The translations under genes and the position numbers were made by a program. DNA of 46,781 bases, taken from the NCBI GenBank assembly GCA_030826715.1, contig JAUUDL010000141.1:1-46781 (forward strand), written 5' to 3'. The DNA comes from Hydrogenimonas sp. Its GTDB lineage: Bacteria > Campylobacterota > Campylobacteria > Campylobacterales > Hydrogenimonadaceae. The notes beneath the pieces were generated by a model. The model was not told the origin of the DNA and ran no database searches. It saw only the letters and a list, made by a program, of their open reading frames with translations. Positions 27,005 to 46,781 of the stretch are shown here, piece by piece; the stretch's first letter is position 1; the number at the start of each line of letters is the position of its first letter.

Positions 27005-27026
27005 ACAATTTGCCTTTGGTAGAAAT

Positions 27027-27044
27027 ATTACAGAATGGTAACAA
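27027..27044 (-). promoter_or_regulatory. Pho-box-like site upstream of pit, overlapping the likely promoter
   Basis: Minus strand TTGTTAC CATT CTGTAAT, matching the two-unit pattern of the island. Unlike the others, no -10 hexamer stands 10 nt downstream; instead the best promoter (TTAAAG, 18 nt, TGTAAT) is overlapped by the box. This geometry suggests repression of pit by the regulator, an inference. Confidence 0.55.
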
Positions 27045-27094
27045 AACAAACTTTAAGAGTCATATCATCCGAATAGATGCGTGATGTAATGCCA

Positions 27095-27139
27095 CGGTAA
27101 CCGTTTTGTGACGTTATTGCAATGAATCATTGCCATACT
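27095..27139 (+). promoter_or_regulatory. Three-unit Pho-box-like promoter of the OlsF operon
   Basis: Plus strand units CGGTAAC, TTGTGAC and TTGCAAT at 27095, 27106 and 27117 (11-nt period), then exactly 10 nt and CATACT (27134-27139) as -10. A transcript from about 27146 would include the AAGGAG ribosome site at 27161. Confidence 0.65.
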
Positions 27140-27171
27140 TTCATCGTCAAAAAGTTCAAAAAGGAGCGATG

Positions 27172-27360
27172 ATGGATGAGATGGTTCTCGAAGTGGTCGA
27201 GTATCTGTGTCATAAATATGGCATGTGCGCCGAAGAGGCCTATTCGATTGTCTATAACGAGTGGGAGTATGTCGAAGAGATGACGGTGGGGCTCTCTCAT
27301 GAGAAGAAGATCCCGCAAAAGATCGCGAAGAGCCTGATAGAACTCTACATGGTGGCGTAA
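27172..27360 (+). CDS. Small protein with IVYNEWE motif, upstream of olsF
   Basis: 62 residues from the ATG at 27172 (AAGGAG 5 nt upstream; another ATG directly before it is too close to the ribosome site). Acidic and helical, no membrane segment. Its core IVYNEWEYVEEM is shared with the 70-residue protein encoded at 29202, so the operon carries two paralogues flanking olsF. The stop overlaps the olsF ATG by one base (TAATG), which implies coupled translation. I do not recognise a described family; a role connected with the acyltransferase is inferred only from coupling and from being under the same Pho-like promoter. Confidence 0.75.
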   Translation: MDEMVLEVVEYLCHKYGMCAEEAYSIVYNEWEYVEEMTVGLSHEKKIPQKIAKSLIELYMVA

Positions 27361-29075
27361 TGGCGATCTGTGTCGAGGAGTATATCTCCAAAAGTCTGCC
27401 CGCACTTCATCATGCGCCGCAGCCTCTGCAGTGGGGTGTCGTGAAGGCGTTTCAAAAGCTTTTCCATGAAGATGAGATCAACGCCTTTTTGAAAGAGCAC
27501 GCCCACAAGGATGCGTTCGGTTTCGTCGAAGCGGTGCTTGACCGTTTCGATACAAAGGTGGTGATCGACAGAAAAGAGCTGTCGAGAATCCCTTCCACTG
27601 GAAAGGTCGTCATCATCGCCAACCATCCGCTCGGCGCGCTCGATGCGCTGGCACTTCTGTATCTGTTGCAGGATGTCAGGAAGGATATCAAGATTTTGGC
27701 CAACGATTTTCTCTATGCGTTCGAAAATCTCCGTGACCTTCTGATTCCTGTGGACAATATGGGCGGGTCGATGAAAAAGAGCAGCCTCGAATCGCTCTAC
27801 GCCGCACTCGAGAGAGAAGAAGCCGTCGTGATCTTTCCGGCCGGCGAGGTGAGCCGCGTCCGTCCGACGGGCGTGAAAGATACGAAATGGAGCAGCGGTT
27901 TTTACAAAATCGCCAGGCGGATGAGGGCACCGATTCTCCCGGTCCATATCGGCGCGAAGAACACGAAGAGTTTCTATCTCATCTCGATGTTGAACAAACC
28001 GCTCTCCGCCGCTTTTCTGCCCCATGAGATGTTCAAGTTCAAGAACAAGCGGATCGAATTCAGGATCGGCAGGCAGATCCCGCATGAAAACTACGATATT
28101 CCGTCGCTCAAGAGTACGGAAGTGGTCAAACTGCTTCGCAAACACTTCTACCGCGTGGCCAAAAACCGCAAAGAGATCTTCAAGACGCTCAACGAGATCG
28201 CGCTTCCCGAAGCGCGCGGCGATATCAAGACGGCACTCAAAAAGGGGACGCTGTTGGGGGCGACGAATGATGGCAAAAAGATCATCCTCTACGAAGGAGT
28301 GAAGATGGATGCCGTCTTCAGAGAGATCGGAAGGCTCAGGGAGATTTCGTTCAGGCATGTGGGGGAAGGAAGCGGCAAAAAGCGGGATATCGACGATTAC
28401 GACTATATCTACAAACATCTGGTGGTGTGGGACGATGAAGCCCTCGAAATCGCGGGAGCCTACCGCATCGGCATCTGTAACGAAATTCTCGATCTGTTCG
28501 GCGTCGAAGGGCTCTATACCTCGACGCTTTTTAATTTCGACAAGCGGTTCGAGCCGATGATGCGTCAGGGGATCGAGCTCGGCCGCAGTTTCGTCCAGCC
28601 CAAATACTGGAACTCCCGTGCGCTGGACTACCTGTGGCAGGGGATCGGCGCCTATCTGAGAACCTCGCCCGAGATTCGCTATCTCTTCGGGCCCGTGAGC
28701 CTGAGCGCGACCTTCACCCAGGAGGCGACGGCCCTGATTGTCCGTTTCTATACCCTCTATTTCAAAGCCAAAGAGCCACTCGTGAAGCACAAAGAGCCCT
28801 ACAGAATCGACAAAGAGATCGCCTCGAGGATCGATTCGCTCTTTTCGGGAACCGACTACAGGGAAGATTTCAAACGCCTGAAAGAAGCGCTGGAGATGCT
28901 GGGCTTCTCGGTGCCGGTACTCTACAAACAGTATGCCGAAGTGTGTGAAGAGGGGGGTATGCAGCTGATGGACTTCGGTGTCGACAGGGCATTCAACAAC
29001 TGTGTCGACGGCTTTATCGTCGTCGATTTGCACAAACTCAAACCATCGAAGAGAAAACGTTACATAGGAGAATGA
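27360..29075 (+). CDS. olsF: OlsF-type bifunctional acyltransferase (ornithine-lipid synthase)
   Basis: 571 residues. N-terminal half (~75-260) is a PlsC-like acyltransferase: the NHPLGALD block (88-95, catalytic H89/D95), then FPAGEVSR and a late AKNTKSF/NKP region. C-terminal half (~310-545) resembles OlsB-type GNAT N-acyltransferases: FREIGRLREISFR, AGAYRIG, LFGPVSLS. This order is that of OlsF, which makes lyso-ornithine lipid with the C-terminal part and acylates it with the N-terminal part, producing phosphorus-free ornithine lipids. OlsF proteins are known from several proteobacterial groups and Bacteroidetes. Start ATG overlaps the upstream small gene; a 42-residue ORF follows after 1 nt. 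Pho-like promoter upstream. Product specificity is inferred. Confidence 0.85.
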   Translation: MAICVEEYISKSLPALHHAPQPLQWGVVKAFQKLFHEDEINAFLKEHAHKDAFGFVEAVLDRFDTKVVIDRKELSRIPSTGKVVIIANHPLGALDALALLYLLQDVRKDIKILANDFLYAFENLRDLLIPVDNMGGSMKKSSLESLYAALEREEAVVIFPAGEVSRVRPTGVKDTKWSSGFYKIARRMRAPILPVHIGAKNTKSFYLISMLNKPLSAAFLPHEMFKFKNKRIEFRIGRQIPHENYDIPSLKSTEVVKLLRKHFYRVAKNRKEIFKTLNEIALPEARGDIKTALKKGTLLGATNDGKKIILYEGVKMDAVFREIGRLREISFRHVGEGSGKKRDIDDYDYIYKHLVVWDDEALEIAGAYRIGICNEILDLFGVEGLYTSTLFNFDKRFEPMMRQGIELGRSFVQPKYWNSRALDYLWQGIGAYLRTSPEIRYLFGPVSLSATFTQEATALIVRFYTLYFKAKEPLVKHKEPYRIDKEIASRIDSLFSGTDYREDFKRLKEALEMLGFSVPVLYKQYAEVCEEGGMQLMDFGVDRAFNNCVDGFIVVDLHKLKPSKRKRYIGE

Positions 29076-29076
29076 G

Positions 29077-29205
29077 ATGAAAACCAATTGGAAGAGCGTC
29101 TATAAGAAAGTGCGAAAGAAGTATGGAAAGAGCAAGGAGAGCGAAACGATCTATCGTTTCAGAAAATCACCGGAATTCGACTACCTTTTCGGAGGGTTGA
29201 AATGA
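29077..29205 (+). CDS. Very small basic protein, 42 residues, in the olsF operon
   Basis: ATG at 29077, one base after the olsF stop, with GGAG 6 nt upstream. The product is rich in Lys/Arg/Tyr (MKTNWKSVYKKVRKKYG...) and ends FDYLFGGLK. Its stop overlaps the ATG of the next gene (ATGA), so it sits in a coupled chain. No family recognised. The perfectly spaced overlaps on both sides are the main support. Confidence 0.6.
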   Translation: MKTNWKSVYKKVRKKYGKSKESETIYRFRKSPEFDYLFGGLK

Positions 29206-29414
29206 AAGGGTTTGATACCGAAACGATCGAGAGAACTGTCGGAGAGGTGATCGACTGCCTGATGGAGAAGTACTCGTTGACCTTGAAAGAGGCGAATACG
29301 ATCGTCTACAATGAGTGGGAACAGATCGAAGAGATGATACGCTGCGGTTTCGGTGCCAGGAAACTGTGCAAAGCGATCATGCGCGATCTTTTCGAACCTG
29401 AAGGTGTCGCTTAA
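29202..29414 (+). CDS. Small protein with IVYNEWE motif, downstream of olsF
   Basis: 70 residues, with GGAGGG 5 nt before the ATG, which overlaps the preceding stop. The core TIVYNEWEQIEEM matches the 62-residue protein upstream of olsF (SIVYNEWEYVEEM), and both have a preceding helix with a KY dipeptide and a basic stretch after the motif. It is thus a paralogue from duplication around olsF. Unknown function; soluble, helical. Last gene of the operon before a hairpin. Confidence 0.75.
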   Translation: MKGFDTETIERTVGEVIDCLMEKYSLTLKEANTIVYNEWEQIEEMIRCGFGARKLCKAIMRDLFEPEGVA

Positions 29415-29459: not shown

Positions 29460-30626
29460 CTACTCCAAGTGTCCTATACTCCCATACGATTCCACCAAAG
29501 TTTCGTGAACATCGACGAAGTGATTGAAACTCGCTTCGATCGTCATCGATTCCCCTTTTTTCAGGGCCGCCGAGGCGGCTTTTTCCCTTTTGGCAGGATC
29601 GTTGAAGAGAGCCAGAAGTGCCAAGAGCCAGGCTTCCTCATCGTCATACGGCACCACGGCCCCGCACGAATCGTCGACAAAACTCAGGTGCCCGCCGATA
29701 TTTGCCGTCACGACGGGCGTTCCGGAAGCCATCGCTTCGAGAATGCTCTGCCCGAGCGTTTCGGTAATGGAGAGGGAGATGAAAAGATCGCTCGCGGCAT
29801 AGAGATAGGAGAGGCGATCCCCCTCCATGTGCCCGAGGTAGTAAACCGAGAGCCCTTTCATCTCTTCGACTCTCTTGGCGTATTCACCCTCTCCCGCAAC
29901 GATCAACTGGGCCGGCTGACGAATGACAGATTTGAATCGTTTCCAGAGTTCAATCAGTTCCAAAAAGCGCTTCTCTTTCGTCAAACGTCCGACATAGAGC
30001 AGTTTGAACCCAACATCCGGAATTTCGAAATCGCGCCACGAAAATTTTTGCTTGAAGCTTGGATTGAACGTTTTAGTGTCGGTGCCTGCCTGCAGTACCG
30101 TGATCGGTATGTCGTGCAAACCGAGACCCAGAAGAATATCCCGGTATAAGGACGAGCGGGTGAGGATATGTGAAAACGAGCGGTAGAAATGCCGCATCAC
30201 CTGTTTGGTGGCATAACGAAGGGCGCCTATGCCTGTATTGTCGTAGATATATTGCGGGAAATCGGTATGATAGGTCCCCACAAGAGGGATGCCATGGCGC
30301 ATCGCGGCCTTTCGTCCGATCAGACCGACGGGTCCTGGTGTGGAGACGTGAACGATATCGGGAGAAAATGTCTCGAAATGCCGTATCATCGGCTCCCGGC
30401 GGGGAATAGCCAGATCCAGCTGGGGATAAAAGGGCATCGGAAACGCCCAACGAGGCGGAACATTCGAGACATTCCTCGGCGCCGGCAGATGTGGCTTTTT
30501 CCGTGTCGAAGTGAAAATCTCGAGCTCCATCTTTCCTGTTTTGCCGGCCTGTTTCGCCATATCCTGAAGAAATCTGGACACTCCGTTCGGATCGTAGAAT
30601 GTATCGGTAAAAAGTGCAATTTTCAT
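29460..30626 (-). CDS. GT4-family glycosyltransferase, Agt-like (glycolipid synthesis)
   Basis: 388 residues. N-terminus MKIALFTDTFYDPNGVSRFL is the typical GT4 opening with a glycine loop; then GTYHTDFP, LLYVGRLTKEKRF and the E-x7-E donor motif in TETLGQSILEAMASGTP. These features are shared with diacylglycerol glycosyltransferases (MgtA/Agt type). The divergent neighbour is a PlcP-like phosphoesterase, the same pairing known as PlcP-Agt in phosphate-starved marine and rhizobial bacteria, where Agt glycosylates the diacylglycerol released by PlcP. The reading frame stays open to 31436, but upstream of 30626 it is antisense to plcP. No Shine-Dalgarno; a -10 ends 5 nt before the ATG. Acceptor and sugar are inferred. 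Confidence 0.88.
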   Translation of the reverse strand: MKIALFTDTFYDPNGVSRFLQDMAKQAGKTGKMELEIFTSTRKKPHLPAPRNVSNVPPRWAFPMPFYPQLDLAIPRREPMIRHFETFSPDIVHVSTPGPVGLIGRKAAMRHGIPLVGTYHTDFPQYIYDNTGIGALRYATKQVMRHFYRSFSHILTRSSLYRDILLGLGLHDIPITVLQAGTDTKTFNPSFKQKFSWRDFEIPDVGFKLLYVGRLTKEKRFLELIELWKRFKSVIRQPAQLIVAGEGEYAKRVEEMKGLSVYYLGHMEGDRLSYLYAASDLFISLSITETLGQSILEAMASGTPVVTANIGGHLSFVDDSCGAVVPYDDEEAWLLALLALFNDPAKREKAASAALKKGESMTIEASFNHFVDVHETLVESYGSIGHLE

Positions 30627-30631
30627 GCCAC

Positions 30632-30665: not shown

Positions 30666-30667
30666 GT

Positions 30668-30707: not shown

Positions 30708-31466
30708 ATGAAATATCGCACCATATTCGTATCGGACATCCATCTTGGCACCCGTTTTTGCAAGGCTGAAGCGTTTCTCGATTTTCTCAAACAGAACGAG
30801 GCCGAATCGATCTATTTCGTCGGCGACATCGTTGACGGATGGGCGATCAAGCGTCGTGTGGTCTGGAAACAGTCGCATTCGGATGTCATTCAAAAAGTTC
30901 TGAGGCTCGCTCGAAAAGGGGTGGATGTCTTTTATATCACCGGCAATCACGACGAATTTCTGCGTCCATTCGTGCCTATGCTGCTGGGAGACCGTATCCA
31001 TGTCTGCAACGAGGCGGTGTACGAGGGGCTCAATGGACGCCGCTACTATGTCACCCACGGGGACTATTTCGATTCGGTGACGATGACCAAACGCTGGGTC
31101 GCCAAACTGGGCGATATCGGCTACGATCTGCTGCTGCACCTGAACCATCTGCTCAACGGTGCGCGCCGTCGCATCGGTTTCAACCGCTACTGGTCGCTTT
31201 CGAAATATGTCAAGGACAATGTCAAAAAATCGGTCACCTTCATCACCGATTTCGAAAAAGTGCTGGCCGAACACGCACACCACAAAGGGTTCGACGGCAT
31301 CGTTTGTGGCCACATTCACAAAGCCGAAATGCGAAAGATCGGCGACATCGACTATTTCAACTGCGGCGACTGGGTCGAGTCGTGCACGGCGCTGGTAGAG
31401 ACGATGGATGGTGAATGGAAAATCGTCGAATGGCAAGAGCGTTTCGTCGAACCTAAAGCCGCGTAA
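30708..31466 (+). CDS. Metallophosphoesterase of the LpxH/PlcP family (COG2908-type)
   Basis: 252 residues. All calcineurin-fold metal motifs are seen: D10-x-H12 (SDIHLG), G39-D40 (VGDIVDGW), GNHD (79-82), H117-G-D119, and GHIHKAE near the C-terminus. The family includes LpxH (UDP-diacylglucosamine hydrolase) and PlcP, a phospholipase C that removes phospho-headgroups under phosphate starvation. Divergence from a GT4 glycosyltransferase with shared Pho-like boxes favours PlcP. The GFNRYWSLSKYVKDNVKKSV stretch is a basic insert suited to membrane contact. Alternative: LpxH function in lipid A synthesis, for which no Pho control is expected. Confidence 0.87.
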   Translation: MKYRTIFVSDIHLGTRFCKAEAFLDFLKQNEAESIYFVGDIVDGWAIKRRVVWKQSHSDVIQKVLRLARKGVDVFYITGNHDEFLRPFVPMLLGDRIHVCNEAVYEGLNGRRYYVTHGDYFDSVTMTKRWVAKLGDIGYDLLLHLNHLLNGARRRIGFNRYWSLSKYVKDNVKKSVTFITDFEKVLAEHAHHKGFDGIVCGHIHKAEMRKIGDIDYFNCGDWVESCTALVETMDGEWKIVEWQERFVEPKAA

Positions 31467-31513: not shown

Positions 31514-32812
31514 ATGAAAACTCGAATCAATGAACGCCGATATCTTCTCCCACCCTGTCGAGTCGAACGCTACCTTCGAAAACTTGGCTTAGAATACGAC
31601 GACGAATCGCTCGAGAAACCTGTTGAAAAAAAGATTTACCACTGCAGGGTCGAGAAGACTCCATGTCTCATAGAAAGTTACAAAAAGAGGCTCAAAGGCC
31701 TCAATATTCTCTCTGTCGAATCGGATTCTCTCCTCCCGGAACTTGAAAAAATGGTTGTCGCGGATGTGACCAACAATGCCGGTTTCAATCCAGAAAATCT
31801 TGCCGAAGCGGTCAGGATTCCGCCCGTCGAAGAGCCTTTGCATACACTTTTGCAAAAAGTGGCCGAATATGACCATTTTCTGAAGGCGGAAACCGCTATC
31901 GAAATATCGGGATATGAAAGTACCGCCCATGCGATTCAGGCTCTTATCTTCTCCCTCACGCATACCATGCATGTCAATGCCAAAGCGATTCTCGAAGGCG
32001 ATGAAGATCCCGAACGGCTCCATCAGCTACGCGTAGCGATGCGGAAGATTCGCGCGATCTTCTCCCGTTTTCGTCCATTTTTTGAAAAGAGATGGCTTTC
32101 GTGCCATAAAGAGGCACTGGCTTCATTGATGGAAAAGAGCAATCCGATCCGCGACGTCGATGTCTATCTACTGAAAATCGACGACTATAAATCGATGGTC
32201 GATCCCTCCTATCATGATGGGTTGGAGCGTCTACGTTCCTATCTCGTGGCACGTTCGAAACTGATGCACGAGCGTTTGATAGAGATGCTCGAAAGCGATC
32301 CATTCCAGCAAGAGGTCGTGTCGCTGTATGAATTTTCAAAAAACGAATCCAGAAATGGATTGTGTGAAATGGCAGAGACACCTATCATTTTTCCGCTCAA
32401 AAAGATTTTGAAACAGACCTTCGCTATCGTGCTGCGTAAAGGCGCGAAGCTTCATCCCGATTCCGATGCCAAAGCTTTCCACGAGGTTCGCATCGAAGTC
32501 AAGAAACTCCGATATACACTGGAGTTTTTTGCATCGGTATTCGATCGCCAAACATATGAAAAGGTTGTAGCGGCCCTGAAAAGAATCCAGACCATTCTGG
32601 GCGACCATCAGGATCTTGTCGTTCAAAAAGCCTATATCCGCTCACTGCTCGATGAACCGGGCCTGAAAGAGAAAGAGACGAAAAAATCGCTTAAAACACT
32701 TATCAAAGCCCTGGAAAAACTGGAGCGAAAGAAACGACGGAGTTTCGAAAAAGCGTTCAAGAAATTTTCAAAAGATGCCGATCTTTTTCACGAGATGATC
32801 TGCCGCTATTAA
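31514..32812 (+). CDS. CHAD-domain protein (predicted polyphosphate-binding)
   Basis: 432 residues. The C-terminal ~280 residues are a CHAD domain, an all-helical fold with conserved His/Lys/Arg: LHQLRVAMRKIRAIFSRFRPF (residues ~171-191 in outline) and FHEVRIEVKKLRYTLEFF. CHAD binds inorganic polyphosphate and is often fused to or next to CYTH triphosphatases. Here the N-terminal ~130 residues (ERRYLLPPCRVERYLRKLG...) may be a decayed CYTH-like module; I cannot confirm it. The context of phosphate genes and a Pho-like promoter fits a role in polyphosphate handling. Start ATG 31514; an in-frame TTG at 31496 lies in the promoter. Converges with pyk, 3 nt apart. Confidence 0.88.
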   Translation: MKTRINERRYLLPPCRVERYLRKLGLEYDDESLEKPVEKKIYHCRVEKTPCLIESYKKRLKGLNILSVESDSLLPELEKMVVADVTNNAGFNPENLAEAVRIPPVEEPLHTLLQKVAEYDHFLKAETAIEISGYESTAHAIQALIFSLTHTMHVNAKAILEGDEDPERLHQLRVAMRKIRAIFSRFRPFFEKRWLSCHKEALASLMEKSNPIRDVDVYLLKIDDYKSMVDPSYHDGLERLRSYLVARSKLMHERLIEMLESDPFQQEVVSLYEFSKNESRNGLCEMAETPIIFPLKKILKQTFAIVLRKGAKLHPDSDAKAFHEVRIEVKKLRYTLEFFASVFDRQTYEKVVAALKRIQTILGDHQDLVVQKAYIRSLLDEPGLKEKETKKSLKTLIKALEKLERKKRRSFEKAFKKFSKDADLFHEMICRY

Positions 32813-32815: not shown

Positions 32816-34651
32816 TCATTTATCACGTTTTTCGGTCATATCGATCAGGGTATCCCGAAAGCCGTCCCATTCGTGGATTCTGGCAAGCTGAGGGCGGCTT
32901 CGCTGGTAGAGCGGCTGCATCGAGGCGATGATTTTTTCGAGCAGTTCGACAGCGCGCGTGGCAAAAGGTCCTTTGTTGAGCATGACGCAGTCGGTACGCT
33001 GAGCGACCGACGCGTCGATGATTTCGGCGCGTGAGGGAATATTCTTTTTCATCAGGTTTTCGAGAATCTGGGTGGCGTAGATCACCGGTGTGTGGGCCGC
33101 TTCGCACAGATCGAGAATCTCCTCCTGTATGCGGCCGAGGTTTTCGAATCCCGCTTCGATCGCCAGGTCGCCGCGTGCGAGCATCACGGCGCCATTGTCC
33201 CATTTGAAAAGAGGGTAGAGAATCATCGGCAACCGATGGACACCGAGCTTCGTTTCGATCTTCGCCACGATGCCGGTCTCTTTTTTACCTCTCTCTTCGA
33301 GCATTGTCTGCAGGGTTTTAACATCCTGCGGGCTTTGCGTGAAGGAGATACCGACGATATCGGCGAAATCGACGATTTTGTCGAAATTTCTTCTATCTTC
33401 TTGGGTCATGGCGGGCAGTTCGATGGCCGTATCGGGAAAGTTGATGCCCTTCTCCTCTTTCACCACGGCGCCGTTCGGTTTGGTGCGCTTGACCCTGCAC
33501 AACAGCCCATCTTCTAGCTTTTCTGCGATAACGAGTTCGATCTTTCCATCATCTATGAAAATCGTATGTCCCGGCTGGGTAAAAGGAAAGATTTTTTCGC
33601 CCCCTTCACAGGGAATCGTCGCTTTGTACGGTTTGCCCGCTACGATATGCCCTTCGACACTTCCGTCGGTCATGAGGATCTCGTCGCCTTCGAAAACCCG
33701 TATCGTCTGCGGAACTTTGGCGAACCGTTCCGGATGTGCCGTAAGATATTTTCTCTTTTTGCATTGAATATGCAGTTTCGTTTCGGGAGAGATATGGACT
33801 CTTTTCTTGCAGCGCAGTACAATCTTTCCAGAATCCGCTTCCATAACCTTCAGATAGCGTGGTTTGTGCTCGCCATCCTCTATTTCGATCACATCGACGT
33901 GTCGTGCTTTGGTGAAAAACTCGGGATCGACGGCGATCGTGGCACATCGCTGCTGCGCTGCTTCCTGCATGCAGCCATCGTTGGTGCCATGCTCTGCGCT
34001 GGATGTAAGCCACAAAGTGTCGTGATATTTCCCGCAGGCCTCGAAGGGCTCGGCGACACGCACGATTTTCCCCGTCCTTATCTTTGGACCGGCAAGATCG
34101 ACATAGATTTTGATCGGATCATCTTTGCGAATATCCTGGTTGAGTTTCGCCACCATGTCAGCCATCGCTTTCCATGTCTCCGGGTCGTCATGGGCCGTGT
34201 TGATGCGCACGATTTTGATGGAGTGTCTCGATAGAAGGTCGATGATGTCGGAATTTTGGGCCGCATCCGATGGAAGCGTGAGCATCACCGAGAGTTGCTC
34301 TTTACCGTTTTTCAAAAAGGCGGCTCTTTTGTTCATGATTTCTTGCGCCGTTTCGGGATCGAGTGGGGCCGGGGCGTCGTCGATATGCTGACCCTGCAGC
34401 GCTCCCAGGAGTCTACGCTCCTGGATGATGGTGTGCATCAGGTGAAAGTGCGATCGCGTCAACGAGGAGAGCCCCAGAAAGACCAAATTTTTCTGAAGTT
34501 TTCTCAGGTCATATTTTTTGAGTGAGAGGAAATCCTGCATATTGAGAAAGGAGTAGGGATAGCGAATCGTGTCCGAAGGTTCGATACGACGCTGTCTCAA
34601 ACTCTCCTGCAAATCCGTCAGCATGCCGAAAACGTATTGAATCTTTTCCAT
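32816..34651 (-). CDS. Pyruvate-kinase-family protein, long N-terminal extension, no C-terminal regulatory domain
   Basis: 611 residues. The pyruvate-kinase barrel begins only near residue 115. Motifs: IVRINTAHDD (usual RLNFSHG), YVDLAGPKIRTG, FIDDGK, VAKIET (catalytic Lys), and MLARGDLAIEAGFENLGRIQ with the Mg ligands, then TQILENL. The sequence ends soon after the barrel (MLNKGPFATRAVELLEKI), where ordinary enzymes have a ~120-residue allosteric domain. The first ~110 residues are a helical extension and the B-domain is long. Substrate change from PEP is possible, but the phosphate-binding residues look present. No Shine-Dalgarno; Pho-like promoter with the -10 6 nt before the ATG. Confidence 0.85.
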   Translation of the reverse strand: MEKIQYVFGMLTDLQESLRQRRIEPSDTIRYPYSFLNMQDFLSLKKYDLRKLQKNLVFLGLSSLTRSHFHLMHTIIQERRLLGALQGQHIDDAPAPLDPETAQEIMNKRAAFLKNGKEQLSVMLTLPSDAAQNSDIIDLLSRHSIKIVRINTAHDDPETWKAMADMVAKLNQDIRKDDPIKIYVDLAGPKIRTGKIVRVAEPFEACGKYHDTLWLTSSAEHGTNDGCMQEAAQQRCATIAVDPEFFTKARHVDVIEIEDGEHKPRYLKVMEADSGKIVLRCKKRVHISPETKLHIQCKKRKYLTAHPERFAKVPQTIRVFEGDEILMTDGSVEGHIVAGKPYKATIPCEGGEKIFPFTQPGHTIFIDDGKIELVIAEKLEDGLLCRVKRTKPNGAVVKEEKGINFPDTAIELPAMTQEDRRNFDKIVDFADIVGISFTQSPQDVKTLQTMLEERGKKETGIVAKIETKLGVHRLPMILYPLFKWDNGAVMLARGDLAIEAGFENLGRIQEEILDLCEAAHTPVIYATQILENLMKKNIPSRAEIIDASVAQRTDCVMLNKGPFATRAVELLEKIIASMQPLYQRSRPQLARIHEWDGFRDTLIDMTEKRDK

Positions 34652-34744: not shown

Positions 34745-36463
34745 TCATGGAATGAGATAGATCTTATTCCCCGTCTTTTCTCCCTCTTTGACCTCTTTGT
34801 AAACATGTCTGAGTGGTTTAATATGGGCCGCTTTCCCTTCGATGAAGCGCTGTGTCTGCACCAGGACACGATAGGCCTTGTTGAGTTTCACGGCTCTTTC
34901 GTGGCTGGGATAGAGAAGCTCGGTGACATCATCGTGCAAAAGATCGATAGCCGTGTGGTTCATATCGCCGCTTGGCAGGAAGAATTTGGACAACACTTCG
35001 TCGTTTTCTCTGAATTCGTCACCGCTGTGGTTGTGTTTGAGATAATTTTCAAGCTCCCATGTGCCATCCGAGTAGCGGTTTTCCGGTGTTCCTTTGAGGT
35101 CTTTTTGGCTCCAGTGATACCATCCGCCGTGCCAGCCGCCCAGCTTTCGTGGAAAGGCGAAGGTCGAATCGGTAATCGTCGCAATACCGCTGTGGCACCC
35201 CATGCAGTTGAGCGTCTCTTCATAACTTTGCGGACGCAGCTCCCCGTACTTGTCTTCGATAAAGCCCTGATAGATCCATCCCATATTGTTGCCAAGCCCA
35301 ATCTCCATATTACCCCGAAAGGTTTCGAGCCGGTCGGGGTTGATATCCTGTTCTTGCAGGTCGGCAAGCCCTTTGTTGTGCAGGTCGGCATAGGTGAGCC
35401 ACTGTACCTTTTTCGCGTATCGAAGCTCTTTCATTCGTGGGGCCAGGGCGATCTGGCCGGGTTGGTCGCTGCGAATGTAGCGAACCGAGTGGAGAAATTC
35501 CGTCCCTTCGGGATAGAGTCCCGCCGCCAGGTGGATTTTTCCCGCTTTCCTCAACGCTTCGGCTTCACCGACATAGTGCATCTGCCGTCCCTCTTTGGGG
35601 GCCCAGTCATACGTGATTTGGGTGGCGGTATCCAAGGTGCCGTCTTTATCGAGGTCGATGCCAAAGATCCGCTCATCTGTCGCTTCGATCGGTGCATCTT
35701 TGCGCTGGATCAGAGATTGCACGATAGCAAGGTTGGTTCGATAGGTCAGCGGATCGAAGCTCGATTGGGAATCACGCTTGCCGAAAGATTCGGGGAGGCG
35801 AATCAGCACGTCATCGGTAGAGCCGTTGGTGGGCCAGAAAGTCCCTAGAAATGGCATATAGGCAAAGGCGGCCCAGCGGGTATAGTGGCCGTCTGGTGCG
35901 TGATCGAGACCATGCTCGTCGAAATGGTAGTAGCAGTCGGGGATGTAACCGCTCCATTGCCCATCACTATCGAAGTCCCACGCTTTTGGCAGATGTTTGA
36001 GCCGGTCGGCCAAAGCGAGGGTGCCGTCAGGAGCGAAGTAGTTGCTCTGATCGACATAGTCGATAATCGCTTCATCACCGATCTTAGCCACGGCATCACT
36101 GAAATCTTTGAAATGGTTGGTGTAGGGGTTGTGAAGCGCCGTAGCGGGGAAATCGTAGGCTGCTTGCAGCGCTTCGTCTTCCATCACGTAGTTCGGTGGG
36201 GTGTTTCGGTTGTGGCAGGCATAGCAGGGGTTGTGAGCCATCCCCTTTGCATCGGTTGTTTTGGTATAGCACATCTGTACGATATAGGCACTGGGGTGCA
36301 GGACTTTCATCGTACGGATGTCGTAACCGTTGGTTGCTTCGAAAGATCGTGTAGCGGGGCCACCGTTTTGCCCGCAACCGCCCAAAAGGGCGGCCAGGGC
36401 GATGGAGGCGGATGCTGCCATCGTGGAAAAAATAAGCTTATTTGAATTTGACCGTATGGACAT
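34745..36463 (-). CDS. Dihaem c-type cytochrome-like lipoprotein
   Basis: 572 residues. Signal peptide with lipobox ALLGGC (C30 lipidated), so anchored to a membrane and facing the periplasm or outside. Two CxxCH haem motifs: C80-Y-A-C83-H84 and C420-M-G-C423-H424, about 340 residues apart. Between them is a long domain rich in Trp/Tyr/Asp without a family I recognise; a calcium-like DLDKDGTLD loop is at ~270-278. Start ATG 36463 has AAGGGG 9 nt upstream and overlaps the 3' end of the PhoX-like gene by 26 nt, so the two are co-transcribed and perhaps translationally coupled. A redox partner of that protein is possible but unproven. Confidence 0.82.
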   Translation of the reverse strand: MSIRSNSNKLIFSTMAASASIALAALLGGCGQNGGPATRSFEATNGYDIRTMKVLHPSAYIVQMCYTKTTDAKGMAHNPCYACHNRNTPPNYVMEDEALQAAYDFPATALHNPYTNHFKDFSDAVAKIGDEAIIDYVDQSNYFAPDGTLALADRLKHLPKAWDFDSDGQWSGYIPDCYYHFDEHGLDHAPDGHYTRWAAFAYMPFLGTFWPTNGSTDDVLIRLPESFGKRDSQSSFDPLTYRTNLAIVQSLIQRKDAPIEATDERIFGIDLDKDGTLDTATQITYDWAPKEGRQMHYVGEAEALRKAGKIHLAAGLYPEGTEFLHSVRYIRSDQPGQIALAPRMKELRYAKKVQWLTYADLHNKGLADLQEQDINPDRLETFRGNMEIGLGNNMGWIYQGFIEDKYGELRPQSYEETLNCMGCHSGIATITDSTFAFPRKLGGWHGGWYHWSQKDLKGTPENRYSDGTWELENYLKHNHSGDEFRENDEVLSKFFLPSGDMNHTAIDLLHDDVTELLYPSHERAVKLNKAYRVLVQTQRFIEGKAAHIKPLRHVYKEVKEGEKTGNKIYLIP

Positions 36464-39400: not shown

Positions 39401-39527
39401 TACTTGTGGACTTGCTTGCATAAGTATCCACTTTTTTGATTCCGGCACTATTTGAACTCGAATCGCAGCCGCTCATAATGAGTATGGCAGCACATGTGCT
39501 GAGGCTATATATCGTAAAACGATGCAT
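36438..39527 (-). CDS. PhoX-like alkaline phosphatase fused to a phytase-like esterase domain, lipoprotein
   Basis: 1029 residues. Lipobox LIMSGC (C21). The first ~600 residues match the PhoX (DUF839) pattern: CAGMKTPWNSFLGSEE, GRFAHELAYVMPDAKTVYLSDD, GTLYAAKWKQ, EGITYDP and SPDNITYMP. The last ~330 residues match the 'esterase-like activity of phytase' pattern (PF13449 type): LDTEAMVKTSTGDFWVAEE, KNRGIESIALSPDESHLYF, and KIEGIGVIGDYLFLINDND. Each half should form a beta-propeller. Predicted role: releasing Pi from phosphomonoesters and perhaps inositol phosphates outside the inner membrane. Start ATG 39527 follows AAGGAG. A Pho-like promoter precedes it. Confidence 0.85.
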   Translation of the reverse strand: MHRFTIYSLSTCAAILIMSGCDSSSNSAGIKKVDTYASKSTSIAYPASDEEKRSINFAKKIDLPLQTVKTRSLDKRAQSVQNLHDLSYKTLFRTGQSLGSETFGLLKDQNDQPLMQEDGSPYICNGQFGGSGPDHTEFIEKDGNIFMITQFECQVGAIYQSKLQQDAQTGELTATDLKYISQKDYHGGYVHCAGMKTPWNSFLGSEEYEPNAADLNISNGSINTYYDQVAPYFGGDLTKANPYYYGWITEVKILNANGDDSYTKHYSMGRFAHELAYVMPDAKTVYLSDDGTNCAFYMYIADKAGDLSAGTLYAAKWKQTSGEGAGSADLGWIELGHATDAEIKQIVDSRPLFSDIFERVEPNADGSCPAGFTSIHPGTGHECLKVKEGMETAAAFLESRRYAALKGATTEFRKMEGITYDPDTKRLYMAISQIAKGMEDYKKYGKSSDHYDLGGPNDIKLSYNKCGAVYALDIDPNKKDANGSALSGYSVKNMYGLIAGIPKEYDENSSYYGNSCDINGIASPDNITYMPASHTLLIGEDTSYHQNDLLWSFDTETGKLTDRIASTPYGSETTSPMWQPNINGFTYINFVTQHPYGESDKDKIKNPDDVQSYVGYMQVDDNKTDLPSQTMSESDYSFDTPLRSVTFDNNKTLDFTIGYGSSAYHAQNDPINIVYALSDRGVNIDCEDDEDILGKDYCDEGKIFPVADFGPRIYKMEIDTLSPSNKVQVLETIALKDKDGNAISGVSNTQYDDTPYNKDGHQLAYDPNGLDTEAMVKTSTGDFWVAEEYSPSIVHTDSEGKVLVRYVPAGFEGNLTAANYTVEGKLPAILVKRHKNRGIESIALSPDESHLYFAMQSPLENPDKDTYKQSRFVRLFKMSIADPSDIQEYVYTLDTPDTFTLDDTTKQNKVKVSEMRAIGDDKLLVLERISKTTKIYEVDLAQATPLAASYDDPATSPTLEELGKDPDSADDVAASVLSKKLVFSTADWPGRFISKIEGIGVIGDYLFLINDNDFGIEGDATHVHTVKFK

Positions 39528-40388: not shown

Positions 40389-41174
40389 TCAACCGAATTT
40401 TCCGGTGATATACTGCTCGGTCATATCCTCTTTCGGGGTGATGAAGAGCTCTTCGGTCACGCCGAGCTCTATCAGTTCCCCCAGGTACATGAAAGCGGTG
40501 TAATCGCTGACCCGCGCGGCTTGCTGCATGTTGTGGGTGACGATGATGATCGTCACTTTCTCTTTGAGCTTGACGATCAGCTCTTCGATCGCCTGGGTCG
40601 AGATGGGGTCGAGTGCCGATGTAGGTTCGTCAAAGAGAAGGACTTCCGGCTCCACCGCGACGGCGCGGGCGATGCAGAGGCGCTGCTGCTGTCCGCCCGA
40701 AAGCGCGGTTCCGGGGCTTTTGAGCCGGTCGCCCACCTCTTTCCAGAGTGCGGCATCTTTGAGGGCCTGTTCGACGCGCCCGTCGAGTTCGCTTTTATCC
40801 TTGATCCCCTTCAGCCGAAGGCCGTAGGCGACATTGTCGTAGATGCTCATCGGGAACGGGGTCGGTTTCTGGAAGATCATGCCGATCTGGGTGCGCAGCT
40901 TGATCAGATCTTCGTTTTTATCGAGGATGTTACGCCCCTCAAAGAGTATCTCCCCTTCGTACCGGTTGCCGGGATAGAGGTCGTGCATGCGGTTGAAACA
41001 GCGCAGCAGCGTCGTCTTTCCGCAGCCGCTCGGCCCGATCAGCGCCGTAACGGCACCCTTGCCGATCGGCATATTGACATGCTTGAGGTTGGGCGTGTCG
41101 CTACCGGCATAGTAGAATGAAAAATCGTTGACTTCGATGATATGGTCGTGCGTGACTTCGCAAATGGTGGCCAT
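40389..41174 (-). CDS. pstB: Phosphate ABC transporter ATP-binding protein
   Basis: 261 residues. ATPase of the high-affinity Pst importer. Walker A GPSGCGKT (47-54), Q-loop [16 protein letters not shown] (PstB-specific FPMSI), signature LSGGQQQR, Walker [14 protein letters not shown], and the H-loop VTHNM. Start ATG 3 nt after the pstA stop. phoU, often next in order, is not found here; the ABM gene follows instead. Confidence 0.97.
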
Positions 41175-41177
41175 GAT

Positions 41178-42023
41178 CTATTTTCCTTTTTTTGTACGAA
41201 TGATGTATCGTCCGAGAATGTTCGAACCCAGAACGAAGAGTGTCAGAATGAGCGCCGCGGCCCAACCGAGATCGATCCAGTCTTCAAAAGGGCTGGTCGC
41301 GTAGTTGAACATTGTCACTGTCAACGATGCGATCGGATGATTGAGGTCGGTCGAATAGAAGTTGTTCGAGAAACTGGTGAACAGAAGCGGCGCGGTCTCG
41401 CCGGCGATTCGGGCGATGGAGAGCAGGATGCCGGTGAGCATCCCCACTTTCGCACCGCGGTAGACCACCTGCATGATCACCTTGTATTTGGGGGCACCCA
41501 GCGCGATGGCGGCCTCTCTCAGAGAACCGGGGACGAGCTGGAGCATGTCGTCGGTGGTGCGAAGCACGATGGGAAGCATCATGATCGCGAGCGCCACGAT
41601 ACCGGCCCACCCGCTGAAGTGACCCATCGGTGCCACCATTATGGCGTAGACGAAGGCGCCGATGACGATCGAAGGGGCGCTCATCATAATGTCGGAGATG
41701 TCGCGGATGAGTCTGGCCAGTTTGCCGTGGCGTCCGCCATATTCACTCAAATAAGTGCCGGCGAGCACCCCGACGGGTACACCTATGACCGAAGCGCCGA
41801 CGACCAGCAGCAGCTGACCGACCAGGGCGTTACGAAGGCCGCTCGGCTCTCTGCCTGGAGGCGCCATATCGACGGTGAAAATATCCCAGTGAAGCGCACC
41901 AAATCCTTTGTAGAGCAAAACCCCGAGGATCCAGAAGAGGAAGGCCAGACCGGCCAGCGCGGCCAGCGACGAGAGGGTCATGACGACCTTGTTCATCAGT
42001 ATGCGTCTGTTTTGGCGGTTCAT
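41178..42023 (-). CDS. pstA: Phosphate ABC transporter permease PstA
   Basis: 281 residues, six membrane helices; the EAA loop lies in LREAAIALGAPKYKVIMQVV, followed by GILLSIARIAGETAPLLFT, the conserved PstA stretch containing the charged residues needed for phosphate passage. Start overlaps the pstC stop (ATGA) so translation is coupled. Confidence 0.96.
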   Translation of the reverse strand: MNRQNRRILMNKVVMTLSSLAALAGLAFLFWILGVLLYKGFGALHWDIFTVDMAPPGREPSGLRNALVGQLLLVVGASVIGVPVGVLAGTYLSEYGGRHGKLARLIRDISDIMMSAPSIVIGAFVYAIMVAPMGHFSGWAGIVALAIMMLPIVLRTTDDMLQLVPGSLREAAIALGAPKYKVIMQVVYRGAKVGMLTGILLSIARIAGETAPLLFTSFSNNFYSTDLNHPIASLTVTMFNYATSPFEDWIDLGWAAALILTLFVLGSNILGRYIIRTKKGK

Positions 42024-42886
42024 GCGCGTGCCTCCTCGATTTTTCTTAGGAATATGAACTTCGCCGCCGCGATGACGGTGAAGCTGATGACCAGCAGGAT
42101 CAACGCCAGATAGAAGAGGCTCGAATAGTACAGATCGCTGTCGGCTTCGGTGAACTCGTTGGCGAGTGTGACCGGAATCGATGTGGCGGGGGCGAAGATC
42201 GTTTGCGGGATCTTGTGGACGTTACCCATGACGAAGGTGACGGCCATCGTTTCGCCGATGGCGCGGCCGAGGGCGAGGATGATGGAGCCGATGATACCGC
42301 TTTTGACGTAGGGAATGACGACATCCTTGAGCACCTCCCAGCGTGTGGCGCCCATACCGTAGGCCGACTCTTTGAGGATGTCGGGTGTGGTTTTCATCGC
42401 ATCGCGCGTGATGGCGGCCATGAAGGGCAATATCATGATCGAAAGTACAAAGCCCGCCGTCGCGAGCCCGAGCCCGTTACCGCCCCAGATGTCGCGAAGA
42501 ATGGGGGCGAGGTAGAAAAGCCCCCACATGCCGTAGATGATCGAAGGGATCGCCGCGAGCAGTTCGATTGCCGAACCGACGACGGCCGCGACCCACGGCG
42601 GGGCCAGCTCGCTCAAAAAGATCGCGATGCCGATGGCGACCGGCGTGGCGATGAGCATCGCGATGATCGTCGAGACGATCGACCCGTAGATCGCCGGCCA
42701 ACCACCGAAGATATCCATATTCGGTGCCCATTTGCTTTCGACGATGAAGTGCAGGCCGAACGCGTCGATAGCGGGCTTCGCCTCCTGGAAGAGGACGACG
42801 AAAAGGGCTCCCAGCAGTATCAGCACACTCAGTGCCAGAAGACGGGTGGAGTGTTCGAACAGTTTGTCGACGATTCTGTAATACAC
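42020..42886 (-). CDS. pstC: Phosphate ABC transporter permease PstC
   Basis: 288 residues, six membrane helices with ILKESAYGMGATRWEVLKDVV (EAA loop, in outline) and the RAIGETMAVTFVMGN motif. The start codon is GTG (42886-42884) with AAGGAT 6 nt upstream; no ATG fits. First gene of pstCAB, driven by a Pho-like promoter ~27 nt upstream. pstS is not directly adjacent; it lies upstream beyond two porin genes. Confidence 0.96.
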   Translation of the reverse strand: MYYRIVDKLFEHSTRLLALSVLILLGALFVVLFQEAKPAIDAFGLHFIVESKWAPNMDIFGGWPAIYGSIVSTIIAMLIATPVAIGIAIFLSELAPPWVAAVVGSAIELLAAIPSIIYGMWGLFYLAPILRDIWGGNGLGLATAGFVLSIMILPFMAAITRDAMKTTPDILKESAYGMGATRWEVLKDVVIPYVKSGIIGSIILALGRAIGETMAVTFVMGNVHKIPQTIFAPATSIPVTLANEFTEADSDLYYSSLFYLALILLVISFTVIAAAKFIFLRKIEEARA

Positions 42887-43098: not shown

Positions 43099-44469
43099 TT
43101 AGAAGAACCACTGTGTGGTGAGTTTGAGGCGATCGACTGTCTTGTCGCCGATGTTTTTGTCGTAATCGTCCTGCTGATAGGAGAGCCCGACTTTGGTGCT
43201 GTTGCCTCTGAGGTACCAGTTGACACCGAAGATTGTGGAAGTGAGGTCGTAGCCGTCGGCATCTTTCCATTTATCCCAGCTTTCGTATCGTGCGAAGGGG
43301 GCGAGGTAATGGAAGTCTTTGAAGACATATTCGCCCGTGACATACCAGCCGTCGGAACTTCCGATGTCGCTTTGGCCCCATTTTTTCACGACGCCGTCGA
43401 AATCGAAGTACTCGGCCTGAATGAACGCACCCAGATAGTGTGCGGAGAGCTCATAGTTGACGAGTTCGTGGTCGATTTTTTTCGACACAGTTCCATCGTC
43501 GTAGGAGATATTGGGGCTTTTCCAGTAGGCGGCACCAACAGAGAAGTGTTTGCCCTCACCGAAGTATGATTCCGTTCTCTTTTTCTCTTCCCATCCGTCA
43601 AATGGAGAGAGAACGATTTTCCCGCCATAGAAGAAGCTCTGCTGTGAAAAAGATGCACCGCTGAAGCTTTTGCCTCTCGCATCTTTGAACTTGCCGGAAT
43701 AGACGCCGTCACCAAACGCGAGCTGGTAATGGACCTTCTTCTTCCAGTCGCCGTACATCTGAGCATTGGTCGCCCGACGGTTGTGAGAGATGTATTGGGC
43801 GGCCTCGTCGGCGACATGCGGCCTGTCGTAGTGCAGAACGTAGGCGGATTTGACGGTTTCCGTTCTCGATACATCGATCTTTCCGCGATAGAGTTTGAAA
43901 TTGACCAGCGATGTGTCGAAGGGTTTTTTGATCTTCAGATAGGCGTCACCGACATTGAACTCCTGTTCACCTTTGTCGCCGTAGTTGGCCTTGTCGTTTC
44001 TGACGTCCATCGTGAAAGAGACGTTTTTGGAGAAACCGACGCCGATTTCGAAGCGTACCCGTCTCAGGTAGGCATCCCAGACGTCGGTATCCGCTTTCGT
44101 GGCATCATTAAAGTCCACTTGCTGGTTTTCGAACGTTCCCTGCAGTCGTACGCCGAGTTTGACCCACATATCGGGGTTGTCGAAGGCCCGTATCTTCATA
44201 TTGGGGCCTGTTTGCCTGCCAAGAAGAAATTCGGGAGACTTTTTGTCGATAACGTGCGGAAGAACCTTTTTGATCTTCAATTCGCTTTTCGCCTCTTTTG
44301 AAGCCTGCTCATCGACATTGACGAAATTTCCGAGCTTCACGCGTCCTGGCCCAGGCTGTGTGCTGATATAGCCTGTCGCCGTATCCTGATAGAGCGTCAT
44401 GGCGCCGGCCGATGCCGCCGAAGAGAGCAGGGCCATAGCCGCTGCCGAGAGAACCGTTTTCTTCATCAT
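43099..44469 (-). CDS. Outer-membrane porin, OprP/OprO-like, Pho-controlled
   Basis: 456 residues. Signal peptide (residues 1-21, ending ASAGA), then a short conserved N-terminal module (TLYQDTATGYISTQPGPGRV) shared with the next porin, then amphipathic beta strands to a C-terminal F (TTQWFF), the barrel-closing mark. Composition and position in front of pstCAB suggest a phosphate or polyphosphate-selective porin, but anion selectivity cannot be read from sequence. ATG with AAGGAT 6 nt upstream. Driven by its own Pho-like promoter. Confidence 0.87.
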   Translation of the reverse strand: MMKKTVLSAAAMALLSSAASAGAMTLYQDTATGYISTQPGPGRVKLGNFVNVDEQASKEAKSELKIKKVLPHVIDKKSPEFLLGRQTGPNMKIRAFDNPDMWVKLGVRLQGTFENQQVDFNDATKADTDVWDAYLRRVRFEIGVGFSKNVSFTMDVRNDKANYGDKGEQEFNVGDAYLKIKKPFDTSLVNFKLYRGKIDVSRTETVKSAYVLHYDRPHVADEAAQYISHNRRATNAQMYGDWKKKVHYQLAFGDGVYSGKFKDARGKSFSGASFSQQSFFYGGKIVLSPFDGWEEKKRTESYFGEGKHFSVGAAYWKSPNISYDDGTVSKKIDHELVNYELSAHYLGAFIQAEYFDFDGVVKKWGQSDIGSSDGWYVTGEYVFKDFHYLAPFARYESWDKWKDADGYDLTSTIFGVNWYLRGNSTKVGLSYQQDDYDKNIGDKTVDRLKLTTQWFF

Positions 44470-44667: not shown

Positions 44668-45879
44668 TTACCATTTGACCTCTGCGGTGAGCATGTAGTC
44701 GTTTTTATCGTTATTGGTAGTATCGTGTCGATCTTCACTATAGCTGATACCGTTAGCGATGAATTTGACATTTTTGTTGTAGGTGTAGGCGACACCATAG
44801 ATCAGATTTTTCTTGTCGATATCGCCGTCTGTGACATTCCATTTGTCATATCGTGCTAGGATAGACCATTTGTCCACAGGGCGGAATTCACCGTTAACGC
44901 TCCAACCATCACCGTCTCTACTGTCAGTGACGTGGTTCTTTTCAGCCTGGTTTTTCATCCAGTGGCCGGCGATCAGGAACATCGGCTGATTGTAGACGGC
45001 ATGGATGCCTGTCATCGTATCTTTGTTGCGTCCGGCATCTGTACCAGTGAGGTAGCGTCCGTAGAAAGAGATATTGAGCCATTCGTCTTCCGTGGCGTGG
45101 ACATGATGTTTTCCCGTTCCCAGTGCGTTGTAGGTCAGACGCCATTCGAAGCTCTGTCCCGTACCGGTTTTCACACCATGGTAGCCGGCATCGTTGAAGA
45201 GGCCGATCTCGCTTGTGAAGTAGTCGGTTTTCGTTTTGAAGTTCACACCGGGTGCCGACGAGTTGATGGCATGGGCCGCGTTGTGCGTTTCTACGAACGT
45301 TTCAGAGATGGAGCGGTAGAGCCAGCCGTTATGCTCTTCGTAGTCGATCCATGGGCGGTGAACCTGACCGAATTCAACACCGGTGTAGGGAAGAACGTCA
45401 CTGAGGTAGAGATAGGCGTATTTCAACCGTACTTCCCAGCTTCCGATACTGTTGTCATTTCCTGCCACTGCTGTGTGCTGGAACGTATCGAGCGTGATAC
45501 GGGCATAGTCGTGTTTGTTCCAGTAGGCTTTGGCCTGAAAATAGTTACGGCGTGTTTCGAACTTGCTGACATCGGCTTTCAAATCGGCGTCGTAGTCCGT
45601 ATAGTGGTATCCGAGATAGTGTGTACCGCTGAATTTGAGGACCGGTACGCCTGATTTGACTTTGACACCCAGTTTCTTGTTGATTTTGGAGAGCATCGAC
45701 TGCTTTTCGACATACTGCTCTTTGGCGCTGACGAAGTCGCCGAGTTCGACGCGTCCTGCACCGGGCTTGGTGTAGATGGCGCCGGTCGCGGTATCCTGAT
45801 AGAGAGTGATGGCGGCAGCCGATGCCGCTGTAGAGAGGGCCGCTACGGCCGCCACAGAAAGAAGTGCTTTTTTCATCAT
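44668..45879 (-). CDS. Outer-membrane porin, second copy
   Basis: 403 residues. Signal peptide (MMKKALLSVAAVAALSTAASA), then the same N-terminal module ITLYQDTATG...KPGAGRVELGDFV as the neighbouring porin, then beta-strand-rich sequence ending in aromatic VKW. The bodies of the two porins differ, so they are old paralogues that keep a shared N-terminal segment. ATG with AAGGAT upstream. No Pho-like box was found directly before it; transcription probably continues from pstS through the one-armed heptamer repeat. Confidence 0.87.
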   Translation of the reverse strand: MMKKALLSVAAVAALSTAASAAAITLYQDTATGAIYTKPGAGRVELGDFVSAKEQYVEKQSMLSKINKKLGVKVKSGVPVLKFSGTHYLGYHYTDYDADLKADVSKFETRRNYFQAKAYWNKHDYARITLDTFQHTAVAGNDNSIGSWEVRLKYAYLYLSDVLPYTGVEFGQVHRPWIDYEEHNGWLYRSISETFVETHNAAHAINSSAPGVNFKTKTDYFTSEIGLFNDAGYHGVKTGTGQSFEWRLTYNALGTGKHHVHATEDEWLNISFYGRYLTGTDAGRNKDTMTGIHAVYNQPMFLIAGHWMKNQAEKNHVTDSRDGDGWSVNGEFRPVDKWSILARYDKWNVTDGDIDKKNLIYGVAYTYNKNVKFIANGISYSEDRHDTTNNDKNDYMLTAEVKW

Positions 45880-45921
45880 GTGTTTATCCTTTTTTTAGAT
45901 TTGTAATTCGAAAATAATGGC

Positions 45922-45974
45922 GGCGCAAAGCGCCACCCAAAACTTTTCACTTTTAGTTTTTAGTTTTTCACTAA
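45922..45974. repeat. One-armed heptamer-repeat element (copy C) after pstS
   Basis: GGCGC-AAA-GCGCC hairpin (45922-45934) followed by heptamers of the types found in copies A and B mixed together: CTTTTCA, CTTTTAG, TTTTTAG and TTTTTCA (about 45942-45972). It ends 1 nt before the pstS stop codon on the minus strand. The second arm is missing. Confidence 0.6.
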
Positions 45975-45975
45975 A

Positions 45976-46682
45976 TTAGTAGATGCCGTGCTCCCTCCAG
46001 TAGTCACGGATCATGTTTTTGGTTTTGTCAGGAAGCGGGATGTATCCCAGTTTCTTCGCGTCTTCATCACCGTTTTTGAAGGCATAGTCGAAGAATTTCA
46101 CGACCTCTTTGTTCTTTTCGGTCTTTTCGCGGGGGAGCAGAATGAACGTAGCCGCGACGATCGGGTAGCTGTGTGCACCCGGCTGGAGGGCGAGAATCTG
46201 ATAGAAGTGGGTCTTGCCAGACCATTTGGCGTAGGCAGCTGCCGCTTTGAAGTTCTCTTCTTTCGGCTCGACCCAGTGGCCGTCGGCTGTCTGGAGTGTT
46301 GCCGCGCCAAAGCCGTTTTTGAGTTTATAGGCGTATTCGACATAACCGATAGAGTAGGGGTTTTGGGCGATGAGGCTCGAGACCCCTTCGTTACCCTTGC
46401 CGCCAAGACCTGTCGGCCAGTCGAGTGCTTTACCGATGCCGACACTGTTGGCCCACTCGTCGCTGACATGCGCGAGGTAGTAGCTGAAGTTGAAGGTCGT
46501 ACCCGATCCGTCGGCGCGGTGGCAGACAACGATCTTTTTATGGGGAAGTTTCACACCGGGGTTGTCTTCGGTGATGCGTTTGTCGTCCCAGAACTTGATC
46601 TTTCCGAGAAAGATCTCTGCGAGGTCTTTGTTTTCGAGTTTCAGTTCACCGTCCTTGACGCCGGGAATGTTGTAGGCCGCGA
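45976..46682 (-). CDS. pstS: Phosphate-binding protein PstS, C-terminal part (5' end lost at the contig fold-back)
   Basis: Periplasmic phosphate-binding protein of the Pst importer. About 235 genuine residues: VVAAYNIPGV, LAEIFLGKIKFWDD, the Pi-binding loop ADGSGTTFNFSYYL, and NPYSIGYVEYAYKL, which are typical PstS motifs. The frame stays open to the window edge, but upstream of 46682 it runs through a reverse-complement copy of pstS itself, so those residues (MREVVAEVEGRTR region) are not real PstS sequence. The N-terminal part with the signal peptide is missing. The stop codon touches the heptamer element. Confidence 0.9.
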
Positions 46683-46781
46683 CGACGGATCGGGTACGAC
46701 CTTCAACTTCAGCTACTACCTCGCGCATGTCAGCGACGAGTGGGCCAACAGTGTCGGCATCGGTAAAGCACTCGACTGGCC
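46683..46781. repeat. 99-bp inverted copy of an internal pstS segment at the contig end
   Basis: 46683-46781 is the exact reverse complement of 46415-46513, no mismatch in 99 bp, with 169 bp between the arms. On the plus strand it encodes GSGTTFNFSYYLAHVSDEW and on, which is the PstS phosphate-binding loop. Either an assembly/amplification fold-back or a real inverted duplication. Confidence 0.95.

Follow-up and report, generated by a model that had tools for sequence, protein, structure and literature searches.

We report a probable phosphate (Pho) regulon in Hydrogenimonas sp. (GCA_030826715.1), in which the main genes lie together with their regulator and a PhoB-type switch is predicted to govern transport, scavenging and lipid replacement; we put the probability of this reading at about 0.9. 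The window analyzed is the entire contig C52 (JAUUDL010000141.1), 46,781 nucleotides (nt) long, from a 1.62-megabase draft genome of 158 contigs. A single switch for phosphate import, scavenging and replacement of phospholipids by phosphorus-free lipids is, on the sequence evidence, the most likely function of the system. A PhoB-type Pho regulon is a kind of system that is already known. The present one is a well-defined example from Campylobacterota, with regulator, operator, spacing and members, and its operator model can be scanned across the phylum.

A shared promoter grammar

Eight promoters in the window (Table 1) can be read directly as two TGTNAC-like hexamers set 5 nt apart, giving an 11-base-pair (bp) period, followed after exactly 10 nt by a -10 element. 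An earlier sequence-only reading of this DNA had described eight promoters with paired 7-mers 4 nt apart; all eight are present, and its spacing amounts to the same 11-bp period. With the sites of pstS (TGTAATCGAAATGTATC-n10-TACAAT) and phoU (TGTTACCGTAATGAAAT-n10-TAAAAT) on the adjoining contig, C4, ten promoters in total follow this grammar. PhoB is known to bind 11-bp direct repeats and to act through sigma-70 (reviewed in PMC4415409), and the best matrix matches in the regions upstream of E. coli phoA and phoB have the same spacing.

A promoter matrix of 33 nt was built from the sites of this genome alone and evaluated by leave-one-out scoring over 101,300 positions. The eight window sites ranked 3 to 13, outranked almost solely by other sites, and those of agt, plcP, the CHAD-domain gene and pyk were each within the top 10 when left out. 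The 43.9 kilobases (kb) of coding DNA in the window gave no match of at least 9 bits, whereas the 2.9 kb of intergenic DNA gave 12, including the eight training sites; the best score upstream of the 16 genes in the first 25 kb was 6.1 bits. The weight matrix that the sequence-only reading had suggested is therefore specific to intergenic DNA, and the refuting outcome which that reading had named, equally frequent matches in intergenic and random coding DNA, did not occur. Genome-wide, the pattern with at most 2 mismatches returned nine matches, seven of them in the window (five) or on the joined contig (two) and the others at pfkA and ahead of dnaA. The weaker sites include those of phoX, CHAD and olsF; four tandem repeats back the phoX and olsF sites, but not that of CHAD.

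Of 39 distinct boxes picked blind to the -10, 21 had a match of at least 5/6 to TATAAT when the spacing was 10 nt; every other spacing between 0 and 25 nt gave at most 5 such boxes. A loose pattern lacking the spacing and the -10 was barely enriched in the window (27 matches vs 20.6 expected), and the test must therefore use the full grammar. By these sequence criteria the promoter class is ordinary PhoB-type, and the regulator that reads it is apparently from a divergent PhoB-family branch of Campylobacterota.

The regulator and conservation of the island

The right end of the window and contig C4 share an overlap of 281 bp (97.2% identical), and the pstS halves on the two contigs complete each other. 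The contig end (46677..46781) consists of 105 nt that form a 99% inverted copy of 46415-46519; this inverted repeat is an assembly artefact truncating pstS. The genome holds twelve OmpR-type regulators, one of which is encoded on C4 (L013), as phoB in a phoU-phoB-phoR series that diverges from the 5' part of pstS. It follows from the overlap and from the pstS and phoU sites that the island runs from pit to phoR and that the regulator operon has its own operator. A phoB/phoR pair, which the sequence-only reading had proposed to look for, is thus present at the end of the same island and is itself under the grammar.

The receiver and winged-helix Pfam domains of PhoB both score over cut-off, and identity to the E. 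coli proteins is 33% for the regulator and 27% for the kinase. In our tree, PhoB belongs to a Campylobacterota clade that has a long branch and is separate from proteobacterial PhoB; this clade sits in a supported PhoB/PhoP group that also includes one other regulator of this genome. A scan of named genomes with the PhoB alignment gave mainly general PhoB and OmpR-type proteins, with one named Campylobacterota match (L117) among the matches listed. Judged by its domains, best match and gene context, the regulator is probably a PhoB-family protein, although NCBI's test does not class it as an E. coli-type PhoB. PhoU matches PF01895 over cut-off (54 bits) in two stretches. No PAS domain was detected in the kinase PhoR, which has a weak, sub-threshold sCache-like match and PnpS as its best NCBIfam match.

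To assess conservation, we ran the matrix on the 250 nt ahead of each orthologue and compared every score with 200 dinucleotide-shuffled versions, taking p ≤ 0.02 as the threshold. Sites were found ahead of phoU in 14/17 relatives, pstS in 8/9, pstC in 3/3, olsF in 14/23 and plcP in 5/13; the relatives are related sequences and not independent, so that fewer separate events lie behind these counts than the numbers suggest. Among control genes, 4/156 reached 16 bits, and three of these four are a PhoH-like gene heading the plcP operon in family f20 (L106 11129-12526, L107 16511-17923, L116 16837-18234). This PhoH-like gene lies behind a strong Pho site (18.8-20.8 bits) and is a credible Pho gene itself. 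Pho sites recur in several families of the order, and olsF orthologues in other families carry a site; in f20, olsF is divergent from phoUBR, and each of the two has one box of its own.

The core of pst, porins, pstS and phoUBR is widespread in the genus. The genes pst, porins, pstS, phoU, phoB and phoR are found unbroken in a similar order in genomes G010, G002 and G003, and pit, olsF and pst are contiguous in G010. The section that holds plcP/agt, CHAD, pyk and phoX is patchy among relatives. The genome closest by PhoB (81%) and PfkA (91%), G005, is without plcP, olsF and the island pyk; G013 shares olsF, a plcP-agt pair next to pstB, and phoX with the CxxCH lipoprotein gene after it; and G008 and G016 keep only the porin site, beside phoBR. 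In 17 same-genus genomes searched, plcP was present in one and the island pyk in none. From this uneven presence, together with the distribution of the CHAD and pyk boxes given below, we conclude that the accessory block is patchy, by gain or loss.

The regulon most likely operates as follows. When phosphate is scarce, flux through PstSCAB would fall and PhoU would stop restraining PhoR, which would then phosphorylate PhoB. PhoB would take the half-sites in place of the -35 and recruit sigma-70. Uptake would rise via Pst and the porins, and ester phosphate would be scavenged by the PhoX-phytase protein. PlcP is predicted to convert phospholipids to diacylglycerol and Agt to carry this on to glycolipids, with OlsF supplying ornithine lipids; the CHAD protein may adjust polyphosphate handling, and pyk may adjust glycolysis. 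The phoUBR operon would be autoregulated, and pit would probably be repressed from the box near its start codon.

Alternative readings and known systems

Several observations weigh against a PhoB-type regulon covering the whole island. The genome is only a draft, 79% complete. PhoB scores below the NCBI equivalog cut-offs (TIGR02154/NF053854: 183.8 bits vs 296.2; 168.1 vs 270), as do PhoR and PhoU (TIGR02135, 61 bits). With 3 mismatches allowed, the pattern does not outperform its reversed control across the genome (25 vs 28), and weak regulon members therefore cannot be called. Outside this genome, boxes were found at CHAD in 1/18 relatives and at pyk in 1/6; both were rejected as conserved Pho genes and are kept for this genome only.

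One alternative is chance, TGTNAC-like repeats being frequent and the pattern having been chosen by eye. The loose-pattern count and the 3-mismatch scan favor this view, but the sites become specific, intergenic and conserved once spacing and -10 are included, and we regard chance as refuted, with a negligible residual probability. It is also conceivable, and in our judgment unlikely, that only the core (pst, porins, phoUBR, olsF and phoX) is real and that the boxes at the other four genes (agt, plcP, CHAD and pyk), carried along with an inserted block, have decayed or do not function. This would account for the patchiness of the accessory genes in the genus and for the unconserved CHAD and pyk boxes. 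All four accessory promoters nevertheless have the exact 10-nt grammar and the high leave-one-out ranks given above, and the plcP box is found in G013, G052, G018 and G079 and, in f20, ahead of the plcP operon. The proposal of the sequence-only reading that a single PhoB-like regulator switches the island, through promoters of the E. coli type, is supported by the matrix specificity, the location of phoB/phoR and the conserved promoters; control of CHAD and pyk is almost unsupported outside this genome.

A far closer competitor, which we rate at slightly less than an even chance, differs over the name and ancestry of the regulator only: the regulator would be the PhosS/PhosR system of C. jejuni and the island an extended PhosR regulon, with PhoB and PhosR as alternative names for a single Campylobacterota lineage. 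The single long-branched clade apart from proteobacterial PhoB and the sub-equivalog PhoB score fit this view, and the published PhosR box is reportedly an 11-bp direct repeat too. Against it, 19 of the 80 genomes searched are without a close PhoB orthologue, and ten of these have a distant Pst operon with no box ahead of it, so that a different system is at work in some genomes of the order. The sequence-only reading had drawn a contrast between PhoB here and a non-PhoB PhosR in C. jejuni. That contrast is unproven, as the regulator is itself a divergent branch and PhosR/S has been called a homologue of the E. coli system (PMC3197622).

Returning to the preferred reading of a PhoB-type regulon, the system resembles E. 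coli PhoB/PhoR in its tandem 11-bp half-sites, 10-nt spacing and -10, in an autoregulated phoB and in control of pst. It differs in the half-site (TGTNAC here vs TGTCAT), in having phoU in the phoBR operon and in having lipid-remodelling genes as members. A 2006 paper by Wosten is said to call the C. jejuni PhosS/PhosR system non-classical in its title, and we know of no lipid-remodelling members of its regulon. PhosS/PhosR, like the present pair, is a two-component phosphate-limitation system of the same phylum, and it controls pstSCAB and phoX (PMC3197622, PMC9449129). In Vibrio cholerae an OlsF-type ornithine lipid synthase is under PhoB (VC0489; PMC12186959); here olsF lies in the pst island or, in f20, divergent from phoUBR. 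In marine bacteria plcP and agt carry Pho boxes (PMC4796936); here too plcP is beside a glycosyltransferase gene with Pho boxes, but the two are divergent from one shared box region instead of in a row, and the host belongs to Campylobacterota. A full-text literature search, with most subscription journals outside its coverage, found no PhoB-type regulon with lipid remodelling in Campylobacterota. By our analysis, phosphate is likely to control the synthesis of ornithine lipids and glycolipids in this phylum, for which the literature searched contains no such report. Ornithine lipids made up 40% in a lipidome study of Sulfurimonas gotlandica, in which olsF is not named (PMC9789136); our model predicts that phosphate supply would set the ornithine-lipid level wherever olsF carries the box.

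Leader lengths, genes and other features

The most unusual detail of the regulon is a split in leader length. At agt, plcP, CHAD and pyk, the -10 lies 5-6 nt from the ATG with no Shine-Dalgarno sequence (30626-30708, 31507-31514, 34651-34658), which suggests that these mRNAs are leaderless, whereas the other six Pho promoters (pstS, pstC, phoU, porin, phoX and olsF) have leaders of 24-35 nt with a Shine-Dalgarno sequence. A similar short layout is kept at plcP and agt in G013. We offer as a speculation, and consider rather improbable, that there are two output classes, a core with leaders and a leaderless remodelling and metabolism class, forming a second control layer that favors the remodelling genes when starvation cuts ribosomes.

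Table 1. Genes and promoter sites of the island within the window (aa, amino acids; ORF, open reading frame)
Feature	Position	Strand	Evidence or remark
pit, low-affinity phosphate transporter, PHO4 family	25421..27004	-	Pfam PF01384, 377 bits
pit box, no -10 at 10 nt	27027..27043	-	15.9 bits; 23-39 nt before start codon
olsF-operon promoter	27085..27139 (grammar site 27107-27139)	+	four 11-bp repeats, 10 nt, CATACT
Small protein, 63 aa, YNEWE motif, upstream of olsF	27169..27360	+	ORF
olsF, bifunctional ornithine lipid synthase	27360..29075	+	NF052615, 790 bits (cut-off 620)
Second YNEWE small protein, downstream of olsF	29202..29414	+	ORF
agt-like GT4 glycosyltransferase	29460..30626	-	Pfam Glycos_transf_1; best NCBIfam GlcN-PG synthase, 118 bits, under cut-off
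agt promoter	30664-30632	-	26.2 bits; -10 5 nt before ATG
plcP promoter	30669-30701	+	25.7 bits; -10 6 nt before ATG; same layout in G013
plcP-like metallophosphoesterase	30708..31466	+	Pfam Metallophos; 75% to G013
CHAD-gene promoter	31475-31507	+	leave-one-out rank 10/101,300; -10 6 nt before ATG
CHAD-domain protein, polyphosphate-binding family	31514..32812	+	PF05235, 164 bits
pyk, pyruvate kinase, long form	32816..34651	-	best match PRK14725, 497 bits (cut-off 642)
pyk promoter	34690-34658	-	27.6 bits; -10 6 nt before ATG
Lipoprotein with two CxxCH motifs, downstream of phoX	34745..36463	-	
phoX-like lipoprotein with C-terminal phytase-like domain	36438..39527	-	PF05787, 84.6 bits; PF13449, 146 bits
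phoX promoter	39594-39562	-	21.3 bits; extra 11-bp repeats upstream
pstC-pstA-pstB	40389..42886	-	PstB TIGR00972 and PstA TIGR00974 over cut-off; PstC by position and homology
pstC promoter	42945-42913	-	30.9 bits; site in 3/3 relatives
Porin-like protein 1	43099..44469	-	conserved beside pst
Porin 1 promoter	44537-44505	-	30.5 bits
Porin-like protein 2	44668..45879	-	
pstS, 3' part	45976..46690	-	TIGR00975, 269 bits; 5' part and promoter on C4

G010 has the pit box (TTTGTTACCATTnTGTAAT) at pit as well, and G013 has it with one change. Its place next to the start codon, the lack of a spaced -10 and its conservation make repression the likelier reading, and the box is a putative repressor site for low-affinity uptake. 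The ninth box that had been reported at pit is real, but it should not be classed with the activated promoters.

The Agt assignment (predicted diacylglycerol glycosylation) is based on the GT4 domains and the place beside plcP, and that of PlcP (predicted phospholipase C) on the Metallophos domain and context; the plcP-like protein has 51-66% identity in several other families. CHAD domains are described as binding polyphosphate (PMC6537752). The two small proteins flanking olsF are related, both having the YNEWE motif, and neither has a Pfam match. Porin-like protein 1 has no Pfam or PDB match, and its AlphaFold model, with a predicted local distance difference test (pLDDT) score of 30, is too poor for a structure search.

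The PhoX-like protein is 1030 aa long here, and its homologues in relatives are about 600-650 aa. The two CxxCH motifs of the lipoprotein encoded downstream are invariant in 6 homologues, every one adjoining PhoX; no Pfam family is over cut-off for it, and its AlphaFold model (pLDDT 39) is likewise too poor for a structure search. In G078 and G066, the CxxCH lipoprotein gene is divergent from phoX and has its own Pho box of 20-23 bits. Between phoX and pstB, positions 39726-39923 encode a 65-aa Lys/Ala-rich, histone H1-like protein, with a weak site (9.7 bits) upstream at 39650.

The genome-wide match at pfkA (L099, contig C134, 2787-2834) is a divergent box. On one side of it lies pfkA, which is followed by a gene for a small protein, and on the other a gene resembling those of FAD/NAD-dependent oxidoreductases. 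Both pfkA and pyk act at irreversible steps of glycolysis, and these two steps may thus be Pho-linked in this genome; support in relatives is weak (5/29 for pfkA at p ≤ 0.02), and pfkA is not claimed as a conserved Pho gene. The element upstream of dnaA, TCTAACCTCATTTTAACG...ATAAAAT (L022, contig C61, 7904-7936), was rejected as a Pho box, its half-sites being without the invariant G. This Pho-box-like element recurs upstream of dnaA in several same-genus genomes.

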